Source of the DNA: Terriglobia bacterium | GTDB lineage: Bacteria > Acidobacteriota > Terriglobia > Terriglobales > Acidobacteriaceae | Direction of reading: 5' to 3' | Assembly (NCBI GenBank): GCA_020073565.1 | Contig: JAIQEY010000004.1 | Location: 124,001 to 188,000 of the forward strand | DNA length: 64,000 nucleotides | The notes under the pieces: generated by a model | Database searches by the model: none | Told to the model about the DNA's origin: nothing | Seen by the model: the letters and a program-made list of their open reading frames with translations, nothing else | Position numbers and translations under genes: made by a program | Shown here: one piece after another, positions 57,331-62,134 of the stretch | How the letters are laid out: every line of letters starts with the position of its first letter | Numbering within the stretch: position 1 is the stretch's first letter

Positions 57331-60090
57331 TCATTTGCCTTTTGCATCCTGCCATAGGATTGCGTTTAGTTTTTTTGCGTCGGCGGCGTCGGGGCGGGAG
57401 AAATCCATTTGCGACGACTCTTTTGCGCCGGGCGCTTTCTTTTCGTTTACCTGATAGAGCAGGCCGCTGCGGAGGTTCTTGTCGTCGGCCTGATAGGGCG
57501 GTTGCGTTCCTGGACCTGAGAACAGCGGCGTCATCAGGGGGGCGTGGGCGTCGAACAGATTCATTGGGGGAAGACCGAGCAGTTCCTCCATGGTGTGGAT
57601 CATGCTGACGGTTGTATAGAAGTGATGATCTACGAAGGCGTGGCCGTTACGCGGGGAGTACTTGCTGATGACGAAGGCGATGGAGCGGTGGGCGTCGACG
57701 TGGTCGGCTCCGTCTTGTGCGTCGTCTTCGAGGACGAAGATGGCAGTATCGTCCCAGTAGGGGCTATGGGAGACGGCATCGACCACGCGGCCTAGCGCTA
57801 GATCGTTATCGGCGACGGAGGCTTGCGGCGTGGGCTTGCCGGGGCGCGTGCCGCCGGTGTGGTCATCGGGCAGATAGAGCAGGGTGAACTGGGGGAGTTC
57901 TTTGGGTGTTCCCTTCTGTTTCACAAACTCGTCGAACTCGCGCAGGAATTCGTCAGCGCGGAGTTGGTCGGGATAGTCGGTTTCGAAATCGGGAAAGAGC
58001 GGGTCGTAGTGGTCACGCAGGACAGCCTTGGTCGGGCGCATTTGCTTTATTTGGGGAATCGCCCACGGCCAGGGGCTTGGGCCTCCCCGCGGATTGCCGA
58101 CGTTCTTGGGTAGGGACTCACCTTTCTTGATTTCAGTCACGGGGCAGCTGTCCGAGGCGGACGACGGTGTTCCCTGCTTCGGCGAACTTACTTTATGGTT
58201 CTTGCACCAGACGGCGTGGATGAATTCTCCGTAGATGCGATAGGTGAGGGCGCGCTTGGCGAGGTTATCCCAGATGAAACCGGTGCCGGGATCGTCAATG
58301 TCGGGGATTTCGTGTTCGAGAGGTAATTCGTCGGCCACGCTGCCGTCGGCGTCGTAGGTGCGCTCTTTGCTGCGATATCCGATCGGCCAATTCTTCTCGT
58401 TGTAGTCGCTGGTGGTCGAGGCCGTGGACCAGATGTGGCCGTCGCCAGAGACCTCGCCGCTGTCGTAGAAGTTGTCGAGCACGCCGAACTGCAGGGCTAG
58501 TTTGTGCTGGTTGGGCGTGATGTCGGCTCCGTACATGGTGAGTGAGGGATCGCCGTCGCCTGCGGGCAGGTCGCCGAGGATCTGATCGTAGGTGCGGTTT
58601 TCTTTGAGCACATAGATGACGTGGCGGATCGGATTCTTGCCGGCGGCGAAAGTGAACTTGCCGGGATCGGCATGGAGGAGATTGTCTTCTTCTACCTGAT
58701 GCGTGTACGCGGCGAGATTCTTGTCGATGTCGGCAAGGCTGAGGCGCTGGATAGAGCCTCCGATCAGGGTTGGGATGTAGGGATGCTCATTTCTCTTCCG
58801 CTCACCTTTTAGCGTGCCCTGCATGTTGTTCGGGCCGCTGCTTTCTCCTTTAGCGGTGGCAATGAGGAGGTCGTTGCCGGCGATGGCTAGGGCGCTGGGG
58901 TACCACTCGGTGGGGATGAAGCCGAGAGGAGACAGTTCGGGGCCGCCGGCGTGAGTATCGAAGACCGCGACTGCGTCGAGCGAAGCGCACGCCACGAACA
59001 AACGCTTGCCGTCAGGGGAGAGAGCAACGGACTGTGGGACTGAGCCCCGATCACTTTCCAAAGAGCTCTTGAGGTTAGCGTGGAAGCGATACCCCACTTG
59101 ATTAGGCTTAAGGTCGAAAGCTAGGACAGAGTCGAAATCCGTGTTGCTGAGGCCCACGTAAAGCGTGTCTTCCGCGGAATTGAGGGCCATGGCAGTTGGG
59201 TGGCTACTCGGAGCGGTCGGAATTGTTCGATTGAACGCGTCGTACCACGCGTCTACCTTCGCGGTCGCTAGATTCAACTGTGCGATGGTGGCGGCATTCC
59301 AGAGGCTGATCCAGGCTTTGGTTCCTGCTTTGTTCGCGACGACGGTGTATGGGTATGCGGCTGGGATGTAGCGGCTGCGGCTCAGGTCGAAGGACTGCAG
59401 GATCTGGCCGGAGGTGGCGTCAAGAAGCACCACGTTGTCGGAGAGATTATTCGCGACGAGCAGGCGATCGCCGCTGGGACCGGGCAGGACGGCTAGCCCA
59501 GCGGGATATGGGAGCGTAGTTCCAGGCGGAGTCTTGCGCACTCCGAACGCCACTTCTTTCCCTTCGGCTAGCCGCTGTGGCGCGATCTTGAGGAAGCGCT
59601 CGGGAGTGACTTGTCCGTCGGCGAATTTGTAGACCGCTATGCCGTTGCCCGTGCTCTTTGGCTTTTCGCCGGTGGGGTCGGTGATCGAGCCCATGGAGGC
59701 GTAGAGATGCTTGCCGTCGCTCGCAAATGCCAGGCCGATGAAGTAGCTCTGGCGGGTTGTCTCCTCGTCGCTGAGGCGGTCGTCGGGAAAGTCGTGCAGC
59801 TGATTGTTGCTCAGGTCGAGGATAGCGATCGACTGGCGTGCGCCGCTTTCCTGTGTGCCGTAGCCCTGGTTGAGGAGCGCGGCGTAGCGGCCGTCGGGGC
59901 TGAGGGCGATGGTGGCGGGAAAGCTGTTGGTGCGGGCCACATAGCCGGGGACGGGGAGCGTCAGGCTCTTGCTGGTCGGAAGGTTGATCTGGCGCGAGCG
60001 TTCGGCGGCGCGTGCAATCACGAACACGATCAGCAGCGAGGAAAGGGTAAGGCAGGAGACAAGGGCGAGCTTTTTCATGAACTCTTTCAC
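57331..60090 (-). CDS. YncE-like beta-propeller fused to alkaline phosphatase/phosphoesterase domain
   Basis: A 919-residue exported protein. A signal-like N-terminal helix (~8-28) is followed by a beta-propeller (~45-420) with repeated ALSPDGR/ANNLSDNVVLLD-type blades as in YncE/SMP-30 proteins. From ~495 comes a phosphoesterase of the alkaline phosphatase superfamily: VLKENRTYDQILGDLP, a GDGHIWS segment and FVLEDDAQDGADHVDAHRS near 770. Metal ligands of that family are present. It is a common pairing in Acidobacteria. The substrate is unknown. The start is a GTG at 60090; the ATG at 60078 is equally acceptable. Confidence 0.85.
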   Translation of the reverse strand: MKEFMKKLALVSCLTLSSLLIVFVIARAAERSRQINLPTSKSLTLPVPGYVARTNSFPATIALSPDGRYAALLNQGYGTQESGARQSIAILDLSNNQLHDFPDDRLSDEETTRQSYFIGLAFASDGKHLYASMGSITDPTGEKPKSTGNGIAVYKFADGQVTPERFLKIAPQRLAEGKEVAFGVRKTPPGTTLPYPAGLAVLPGPSGDRLLVANNLSDNVVLLDATSGQILQSFDLSRSRYIPAAYPYTVVANKAGTKAWISLWNAATIAQLNLATAKVDAWYDAFNRTIPTAPSSHPTAMALNSAEDTLYVGLSNTDFDSVLAFDLKPNQVGYRFHANLKSSLESDRGSVPQSVALSPDGKRLFVACASLDAVAVFDTHAGGPELSPLGFIPTEWYPSALAIAGNDLLIATAKGESSGPNNMQGTLKGERKRNEHPYIPTLIGGSIQRLSLADIDKNLAAYTHQVEEDNLLHADPGKFTFAAGKNPIRHVIYVLKENRTYDQILGDLPAGDGDPSLTMYGADITPNQHKLALQFGVLDNFYDSGEVSGDGHIWSTASTTSDYNEKNWPIGYRSKERTYDADGSVADELPLEHEIPDIDDPGTGFIWDNLAKRALTYRIYGEFIHAVWCKNHKVSSPKQGTPSSASDSCPVTEIKKGESLPKNVGNPRGGPSPWPWAIPQIKQMRPTKAVLRDHYDPLFPDFETDYPDQLRADEFLREFDEFVKQKGTPKELPQFTLLYLPDDHTGGTRPGKPTPQASVADNDLALGRVVDAVSHSPYWDDTAIFVLEDDAQDGADHVDAHRSIAFVISKYSPRNGHAFVDHHFYTTVSMIHTMEELLGLPPMNLFDAHAPLMTPLFSGPGTQPPYQADDKNLRSGLLYQVNEKKAPGAKESSQMDFSRPDAADAKKLNAILWQDAKGK

Positions 60091-60176: not shown

Positions 60177-62069
60177 TTACTTCGGGCCTTCGTCTTGAAC
60201 TGCCGGCGCGAATGACAGCGTCTGGGTCGTATGGATCTTCTGGGCTGGTAGAAGCAGGTCGAGCAGCAGGTCCTGTGGGGTAGCGGACGAGAACTCGACG
60301 TCATACGTTTCCCCTACCGTAATCGTAAGCTGTGCTTTGGTCGGACGCACGACATTCGCCGGTAGATCAGCGCCGTCTTTCGCGATATTCAACCACTCCA
60401 CCGGGCCGTTTGTATCGCGAAGAGACACCTGCATCGCTTGGTTGTTGGTCGAGATGTTGATCAGCCGGAGGCGGTATTTTTTGCCCGCCTGTAACTGCAG
60501 CGTTTTGCTTTGTGGCGTCCCGTTGATGAGCGCCAACTCCTGCAACGCGCCGAAATCGCCGATGCTGAATACGAACACCAGATCGGATGCAGGATCGAAT
60601 TTCTCTCCTGGCGGCAGCACGATCAACGGGCCGTAGATGCCGTTGGTGAGCTGCAATTGATCGTGCCAGTGCGTGTGATAGATGAATGTTCCGGTGCGCG
60701 GCGGCGCCATCCGAGCTACAAATGACGTTCCTGGCGCGACTGGTGGCATGATCTGTGTGTCTGTACCACTCCATCCTGGGACTCCGTCGTAATAACTCTC
60801 CAACTCGATTCCGTGCCAGTGGATGGCGGTTGGATCTTTGAGTCTGTTCACCACTTCGATTTCTACCGATTGGCTGCGCGTCAGCACGATCGGCGGACCG
60901 ATCAGTCCCGGCTTGCTCGGGGTGGCTACGGCTTGCGCGCCTTCACGCAACTGCAGAGCGTAGCGGGGCGCGCCGCTGCGTTCGCTGATCTCGAGTTGCA
61001 GTTTGCGATCTGTGTGCCACTCGGCGCCGGACGCCGCCCTTTTAGTCCCGGGTACGGTTATGCCCAATACGAGCTGCCCCATACCAGATGCTTCGTGCAT
61101 CGTCGCGTGCTCGTCCGGACGGGGGAGGGCCGCTCTCATCGACAGCCCCGGCACCCTGGGCACGATGGGCGGAGTCATGTGCTGGAGCATGTGGCAGTGA
61201 AAGAGCCATTGTCCAGGCCGATCCGGCGACCAACTCATGTCGAACGTTTCGCCCTGTGTGATTCGCTGGGTCACGACCATCGGTCGCGATTCGCCGTTGT
61301 AGCTTTGCACTCGCCCGCCGCGATTGAAAGCATCAATCCTGTAATAGAAGCCATGCAGGTGCAGCGCGTGCGGTTCATTGGTAGCGTTGATCCAGCGCCA
61401 ACGCACCGGTTGACCGATGTCATAGTGAAACCGCTGTGTGTAAGGCCAGGACTTGCCGTTGATAGTGGCCAGCGTTTCCCTGGCGTTGGCGCCGGGATGC
61501 TCTGACATCATCTCCATAACGAAGATCTCGTCGTTCGCGCTGCTGCCGGCCGGATCGACCACGAACGCGCCGGTCAACTCCGAGTTGATGCCGTAGCGCA
61601 ACTTCAGATCCTCGCCTTCCGACGCACCCCAATAAAAGTACAGCCCGGGCGTTGTTGCTTTGAATCGAACCTGCTCCACCGTTCCAGGTGCGATATGCAC
61701 GACCGCATCGCTGACGCCGGGATCTCCCAGGCCATGCACAGCGATCGGCACGGCGAGCGTGTTGTGCAAGGAGGCGCTAATTTCGGTGCCTTGGGTCACG
61801 CGGATCATCGGACCGGGAGTCTGCAGTGGGCGTCCAGGCTCGCCGAACGCATACACGGACAGCGCAATGCCGTCATCAGCTTCCGGATGCCACTCGCCCT
61901 TCGCGATCTCAAGCTGAACCGACAACACTCCATCGCGGAGGATGCCCGCCGGCGTGTGGTTCTGGTTTGCTTCGATTGGAGGCAACGACTCCGCCGGGAA
62001 TCCGAAAGTGGTAACGGCAAAGCACATCGGAAGCAGCCTTGCAATCCGCCCAAGCCAACCGCAGGTCAT
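60177..62069 (-). CDS. Multicopper oxidase with permuted domain order
   Basis: A 630-residue exported copper oxidase. It contains all four H-x-H pairs of the trinuclear centre and the type 1 ligands, but the order is unusual: NEPHALHLHG (His234, 237, 239) and FHCHMLQHM (His291, Cys292, His293, His297) come first, while AIHWHG (His417, His419) and YHTHWHD (His465, His467) come later. In laccases the last two motifs come first. An extra N-terminal cupredoxin domain (~60-175) has lost its ligands (VHGLG, YFYWGAS). Signal peptide ends near residue 26. GGAG lies 5 bases before the ATG. Confidence 0.9.
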   Translation of the reverse strand: MTCGWLGRIARLLPMCFAVTTFGFPAESLPPIEANQNHTPAGILRDGVLSVQLEIAKGEWHPEADDGIALSVYAFGEPGRPLQTPGPMIRVTQGTEISASLHNTLAVPIAVHGLGDPGVSDAVVHIAPGTVEQVRFKATTPGLYFYWGASEGEDLKLRYGINSELTGAFVVDPAGSSANDEIFVMEMMSEHPGANARETLATINGKSWPYTQRFHYDIGQPVRWRWINATNEPHALHLHGFYYRIDAFNRGGRVQSYNGESRPMVVTQRITQGETFDMSWSPDRPGQWLFHCHMLQHMTPPIVPRVPGLSMRAALPRPDEHATMHEASGMGQLVLGITVPGTKRAASGAEWHTDRKLQLEISERSGAPRYALQLREGAQAVATPSKPGLIGPPIVLTRSQSVEIEVVNRLKDPTAIHWHGIELESYYDGVPGWSGTDTQIMPPVAPGTSFVARMAPPRTGTFIYHTHWHDQLQLTNGIYGPLIVLPPGEKFDPASDLVFVFSIGDFGALQELALINGTPQSKTLQLQAGKKYRLRLINISTNNQAMQVSLRDTNGPVEWLNIAKDGADLPANVVRPTKAQLTITVGETYDVEFSSATPQDLLLDLLLPAQKIHTTQTLSFAPAVQDEGPK

Positions 62070-62134
62070 ACCTACTCCGATCCAAACGAAAGATTTTGAG
62101 GAAAATCGATCTATGGGCTCCCGACGGCAACAAT

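Follow-up and report, generated by a model that had tools for sequence, protein, structure and literature searches.

Multicopper oxidases are classed as two-, three- or six-domain proteins (PMC13151041, PMC7036934). In trimers of the two-domain enzymes each trinuclear copper centre is built jointly by two subunits, domain 2 of the one and domain 1 of its neighbour (PMC13151041). Among the six-domain enzymes, MnxG carries motifs C and D at its N terminus and motifs A and B at its C terminus (PMC3618234); domains 2 and 3 hold the trinuclear site between them both in algal Fox and in those six-domain enzymes of bacteria that were identified together with MnxG (PMC3600357). According to a published evolution scheme, two-domain units multiplied and copper sites were then lost (PMC3600357). 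A four-domain version is absent from the passages of PMC13151041 and PMC7036934 that set out the two-, three- and six-domain classes, and we found no description of a four-domain multicopper oxidase in the open-licence PMC literature; in PMC10654088 the words 'four-domain' refer to Mo enzymes. The selection described in PMC3600357 took only sequences longer than 800 amino acids (aa), so a four-domain family would be left out of it. Here we describe a gene of a Terriglobia bacterium whose product is probably an exported four-domain multicopper oxidase, and we consider it likely that this protein arose by tandem duplication of a two-domain multicopper oxidase.

An oxidase gene with reversed copper motifs

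The gene lies near the end of the window, by which we mean the whole stretch of 64,000 nucleotides that was analysed, and its features are collected in Table 1. Pfam places Cu-oxidase_2 (aa 198-299) N-terminal to Cu-oxidase_3 (aa 389-487) and adds a short Cu-oxidase match at aa 513-544 of the 630-aa protein, for which no NCBIfam model reached its cut-off (best copper_res_A, 111 of 479 bits). The N terminus, judged by eye, resembles a signal peptide, suggesting that the oxidase is probably exported. The C-terminal-type motifs (H234-H239 and the HCH motif of residues 291-297) stand upstream in the chain of the N-terminal-type motifs (HWH 417-419 and HTH 465-467). A preliminary description made from the sequence had claimed this reversed order; the Pfam order and the residue positions show it to be real, and the residue numbers given there were correct. 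The motif residues were assigned to type 1 or trinuclear copper as is usual for the multicopper oxidase superfamily.

Table 1. Features of the oxidase gene and its product, in positions of the window
Feature	Position	Strand	Basis
Four-domain multicopper oxidase gene, 630 aa	60177..62069	-	ORF with ATG start; Pfam; homologues
GGAG, ribosome-binding-site-like, 5 nt before ATG	62075..62078	-	sequence
Domain 1 (aa 30-175), N-type cupredoxin, trinuclear ligands lost	61545..61982	-	hhalign D1 vs D3 97.5%; phmmer
Domain 2 (aa 176-315), C-type, type 1 site and half of trinuclear ligands	61125..61544	-	Pfam Cu-oxidase_2
HALHLHG, aa 234-240 (H234 type 1; H237, H239 trinuclear)	61350..61370	-	three His in 77/77
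HCHMLQH, aa 291-297 (H291, H293 trinuclear; C292, H297 type 1)	61179..61199	-	H291, C292, H293, H297 in 77/77
His/Met-rich insertion, aa 298-329, type 1 His to conserved Met	61083..61178	-	at least 3 His+Met in 72/77
M330, candidate axial type 1 ligand	61080..61082	-	Met in 76/77, Phe in 1
Domain 3 (aa 346-490), N-type, other half of trinuclear ligands	60600..61034	-	Pfam Cu-oxidase_3
HWHG, aa 417-420	60810..60821	-	H417, H419 in 77/77
HTHWH, aa 465-469 (H465, H467 trinuclear)	60663..60677	-	H465, H467 in 77/77
Domain 4 (aa 491-630), C-type, without copper ligands	60180..60599	-	hhalign D2 vs D4 96.8%

The superfamily features that are present comprise the eight trinuclear His in four HxH motifs and the type 1 His, Cys and His; these 11 ligands are identical in all 77 rows of alignment A2, window included, and are also invariant in a smaller alignment (16/16). 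A2 holds the window and 76 of the 80 loci described below; the four left out are L095, with stops inside the match, L093, which a contig end cuts, and L078 and L121, which nearly duplicate L077 and L120. The feature that is absent is the axial Met, Leu or Phe five residues past the type 1 His. The preliminary description had all type 1 ligands retained along with the trinuclear ones; this stands for the eight His and for H234, C292 and H297, but the axial position (I302) is variable. Because the ligands are completely conserved, the 630-aa protein is probably a working oxidase, and the activity foreseen in that description gains support to the same extent.

A widespread family

In a scan of genome contigs, relatives in the wide sense (E 1e-3) were encoded by at least 549 of at least 590 stretches, of which the 80 best homologous loci were kept. 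The match region is an open frame in 79 of these, and in all 79 the HCHxxxH motif precedes a conserved HWHG-type motif. With the same order in all open loci, from many assemblies and several phyla, an assembly or chimera artefact is ruled out: the reversed-order oxidase is a member of a widespread family and not a single oddity. The titles of the 80 loci include Acidobacteria, Gemmatimonadetes, Eremiobacterota, Rokuibacteriota, Flavihumibacter, Opitutaceae, Steroidobacter and Rhodospirillaceae, and the proteins, as cut from the loci, are 590-696 aa long except for one shortened by a contig end. Two of the family members come from cultured isolates, Gemmatirosa kalamazoonensis KBS708 (L062) and Flavihumibacter profundi (L129).

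Matches at E < 1e-100 occur in 13 of 61 genomes related to that of the window and in 4 of 297 drawn from its phylum, its own genome being counted in both. Among sampled Gemmatimonadota, 69 of 200 genomes match A2 at E 1e-60 or better, with up to five matches per genome; some matches are incomplete or are situated at the end of a contig. A2 matches were found in 4 of 296 genomes from the phylum of Flavihumibacter and, at E 1e-30, in 6 of 398 from the phylum of Steroidobacter, where the match is full-length solely in the centre genome and the other five cover the second half, in frames 477-518 aa long. Each of these last three samples counts its centre genome, which was positive beforehand, and only a few first-look candidates were scored per genome.

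Several relatives depart from this pattern. A 534-aa protein (G011:C28:8677-10092) matches aa 25-245 and 353-596 and not the HCHxxxH part, and is possibly a deletion variant. The window's own genome holds pairs of further Cu-oxidase_2 matches at C114:31605-33783 and C69:66744-68946 (L144-L146, L148) with an unusual type 1 motif, HTVHFHG...HCHITPPEHLQMGM, in frames of 747 and 548 aa. In proteins of 676 aa (L002, own genome, C122:20418) and 666 aa (L025, same genus) a cupredoxin (HCGTPMIAEHIANGM) matches aa 83-185 of the oxidase, and two frames of 442 and 404 aa (L030, L031) carry HTPHWHG and HCHxxxH with an uncommon spelling of the C-type motif.

Two colinear halves

Alignment A2 was split at the linker into a first half (aa 30-315) and a second half (aa 346-630), and comparison of the two with hhalign gave a colinear match (probability 99.1, E 5.9e-19, 194 columns, 26% identity). 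Domains 2 and 3 also scored 96.7 against each other, and other domain pairs 74-78; cupredoxin kinship by itself gives high hhalign scores, though not colinear across two domains. With phmmer domain 1 alone retrieved nitrite reductases and two-domain laccases (best E 1.1e-6); a search with domain 4 alone gave weak laccase matches only (best E 0.011). H112 of domain 1 is kept in 47 of the 77 rows, and the window's copy has neither His of the YHTH motif, which upholds the earlier view of an N-terminal cupredoxin domain with most or all ligands lost. That view was right about the extra domain at the N terminus but missed a fourth domain (aa 491-630) after the HTHWH domain, and in the window's protein none of the C-type ligands is present there. 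In one homologue (L137) there is one more HxHG at about residue 110, in domain 1, possibly a remnant of lost N-type ligands.

Because the halves align, domain 1 with domain 3 and domain 2 with domain 4, and ligands have been lost in domains 1 and 4, the architecture is better described as N*-C-N-C*, that is, as two two-domain units, (N*-C)(N-C*). In a plasmid record from Nostoc, 75% of the query is matched by two pieces that lie within 822 bases, the domain 3 match just upstream of the domain 2 match; so short a stretch would not suffice unless both halves of the query match one two-domain stretch.

Predicted structure

The full chain, modelled with AlphaFold2 on A2, reached a pLDDT of 89.4 and a pTM of 0.91, with a low-confidence stretch between domains 2 and 3 (pLDDT 52-53 at aa 311-330). 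In Foldseek searches the best matches of this model were a venom factor V-like chain, ceruloplasmin, factor V and factor VIII, and MnxG (9bxa_A) followed at rank 18 with a TMq of 0.63 over 855 columns; across this group TMq was 0.55-0.63 and the rmsd 6.0-9.2 A over 687-855 columns. Three-domain oxidases gave a TMq of 0.30-0.34 at an rmsd of 16.6-18.9 A; for 9cck_A, in which an oxidase bears an additional cupredoxin domain, the rmsd was 27.0 A. Foldseek alignments are sequential, so a reversed domain order cannot be followed in these values. The top match in a viral structure library was a giant-virus copper oxidase (TMq 0.31). A separate model of domains 2 and 3, built on alignment A3 (61 of the 77 A2 rows), had a pLDDT of 83.4 and a pTM of 0.81 and matched ceruloplasmin and factors V and VIII at a TMq of 0.47-0.59 (rmsd 6.3-11.5 A) and the other listed oxidases, laccases included, and nitrite reductases at 0.26-0.34; MnxG was not in the best 50 of its 539 matches (E 0.001 or better).

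Given the rmsd values, the predicted domain packing appears akin to that of the six-domain proteins without being identical to it. Indirectly, the models support the idea that the four HxH pairs may converge on a single tricopper cluster at the junction of domains 2 and 3. The circularly permuted oxidase with an extra domain, as put forward in the preliminary description, does not fit these results as stated: the halves are colinear, and the model matches six-domain proteins but fits three-domain oxidases poorly.

A possibly split type 1 loop

The usual axial position of the type 1 site, ten residues after the Cys and five after the type 1 His, is occupied here by I302 and holds Met in 3 of the 77 rows; Met, Leu or Phe together account for 15 of 77, and the pair Gly-[MLF] at +4/+5 occurs in none. 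Of 40 reference HCHxxxH sites from other oxidase frames, many of which are closely related, Gly-[Met/Leu/Phe] stands at +4/+5 in 26 and Met at +5 in a further 12, and two, from Nostoc (L059) and Variovorax (L061), show neither pattern; not counted were L143, which is the copy in the window itself, L058-, an antisense frame, and reference frames that lack HCHxxxH.

A Met equivalent to M330 stands just before the next strand, +13 to +49 residues (median 29) from the type 1 His, and we propose that it may serve as a replacement axial ligand. The stretch between the two residues contains on average 2.9 His and 1.6 Met, and His and Met make up a mean of 14% of aa 303-345 vs 6% of the whole protein. 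As a flexible neighbour in sequence of the type 1 ligands, the His/Met-rich insertion may bind copper or shape the access of metal or phenolic donors. Were the type 1 loop truly split, this would be a new way to tune a blue copper site.

Origin of the domain order

The origin that we favour has two two-domain units fused in one chain, from which the N-type ligands of the first unit (domain 1) and the C-type ligands of the second (domain 4) would have been lost. Since this loss is complementary, a single complete centre would remain at the inner junction of domains 2 and 3, the type 1 copper being held by domain 2. A reductant would then deliver electrons to the type 1 site (H234, C292, H297 and probably M330), from which they would follow the H-C-H path to the trinuclear centre and there reduce O2 to water. 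Duplication with complementary ligand loss accounts for all four domains, and we prefer it, without regarding it as proved, on grounds of parsimony and structure. For a tree of two-domain units, 58 rows (260 columns) were selected by hand: both halves of 16 of the 77 family members, 11 two-domain references and 15 three-domain references. Each half formed one clade, and the halves joined opposite the two- and three-domain enzymes on a branch that is not firm (support 92/67). AU tests did not reject the placements of the second half with three-domain enzymes (p 0.239), of the second half with two-domain enzymes (0.166) or of the first half with two-domain enzymes (0.254).

A circular permutation at the gene level, converting a laccase-like ancestor N-C*-[N*]-C into N*-C-N-C*, would fit the motif order exactly. 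The second half (profile 390-568) aligns with domains 1 and 2 of a laccase (positions 31-213 in 4f7k_A), and its joining with the three-domain clade is among the placements kept by the AU test. We nevertheless regard this route as unlikely: the best tree, on that same infirm branch, keeps the halves together, and a duplicated two-domain unit gives the same order unaided, the inner site in a six-domain chain being exemplified by MnxG and algal Fox (PMC3600357). It is likewise improbable that the family is a shortened relative of the six-domain MnxG/Fox1-type enzymes that lost two domains. The location of the trinuclear site between domains 2 and 3, with type 1 copper in domain 2, is that of the bacterial six-domain enzymes (PMC3600357), and the Foldseek match of the full model to MnxG agrees with it; by sequence, however, MnxG is not in the best 60 of 171, 180 or 291 matches among PDB chains, and although it may rank lower in the two profile searches (180 and 291 matches), two- and three-domain oxidases and ceruloplasmin do appear in their best 60.

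The active centre might also form between molecules, from domain 2 of one chain and domain 3 of another, as the two-domain trimers work (PMC13151041), and the low confidence of part of the stretch between these domains would allow for it. We consider this very unlikely in view of the high pTM of the single chain and of the ligand loss in both outer domains, which leaves one site per chain, most simply at the inner junction.

Returning to the duplication of a two-domain unit, we tentatively extend it to a fuller proposal, possible rather than likely: that the family is an undescribed four-domain class which arose from a duplicated two-domain ancestor and retained its inner centre (domains 2/3), where the three-domain enzymes kept the outer one, and in which a copper-binding His/Met-rich insertion splits the type 1 loop and the axial Met follows about 30 residues on. 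If true, such a class would stand between the two- and six-domain enzymes as the intermediate to be expected.

Genomic neighbourhood and possible function

Clustering of 789 ORFs, taken from loci of 9 kb or more, 55 of which have the family gene in the clustering, showed no widely recurring neighbour; the largest neighbour clusters cover 9, 6 and 5 loci, one member of each resembling by eye a protein kinase, a regulator with a TolB-like propeller and a TonB-type receptor, respectively. In the window a 919-aa beta-propeller/phosphoesterase-type protein is encoded 86 bp downstream of the oxidase on the same strand (57331-60090), and it has no match among the 789 ORFs at E 1e-5. Among these neighbours none that is conserved hints at a substrate, and an operon-based function was set aside; the pattern would suit an oxidase that stands alone. 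We found no assay of a homologue in the open-licence PMC literature. Judging by the superfamily and by the His/Met-rich loop, our guess is a laccase-like phenol or metal oxidase.

Discussion

A common four-domain family, present in about one-third of the sampled Gemmatimonadota genomes, makes an intermediate evolutionary stage testable. Soil laccase surveys that use two- and three-domain models may count four-domain enzymes as either. In one such survey, made with two- and three-domain laccase profiles, Gemmatimonadales had the most laccase genes by order (PMC12045287), and the count reported there may include the four-domain family.

The reversed motif order itself is not new, being known from six-domain MnxG and algal Fox1. 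The preliminary description had asked whether a family with this order was already published: the order is, for MnxG and algal Fox (PMC3618234, PMC3600357), but in six-domain proteins. What we did not find described in the open-licence PMC literature is the construction from four domains and the displacement of the Met, together with the His/Met-rich loop.

Each known group shares part of this arrangement. In the two-domain type B enzymes (type 1 copper in domain 2; SLAC, CjMCO) the N-C unit corresponds to each half of the oxidase, and the trinuclear centre would occupy the domain 2/domain 1' kind of junction described for them (PMC13151041); here, in contrast, two units form one chain of four domains and 630 aa with one centre left. 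The three-domain enzymes CueO, CotA, CopA and the fungal laccases share the ligand motifs and give sequence matches to N- and C-type domains, but their order, as seen in the references, is N-C*-C, with the N-type domain first and the C-type domain last, whereas here it is N*-C-N-C*. Ceruloplasmin and factors V and VIII, with six tandem cupredoxin domains (PMC3600357), are the best structural matches, although the trinuclear centre of ceruloplasmin lies between its domains 1 and 6 (PMC3600357). As in MnxG and Fox1, motif positions set against the domain map place the trinuclear ligands in domains 2 and 3 and the type 1 site in domain 2; MnxG reaches this arrangement in six domains and 1217 aa (PMC3618234), whereas the family described here has four domains in 590-696 aa.
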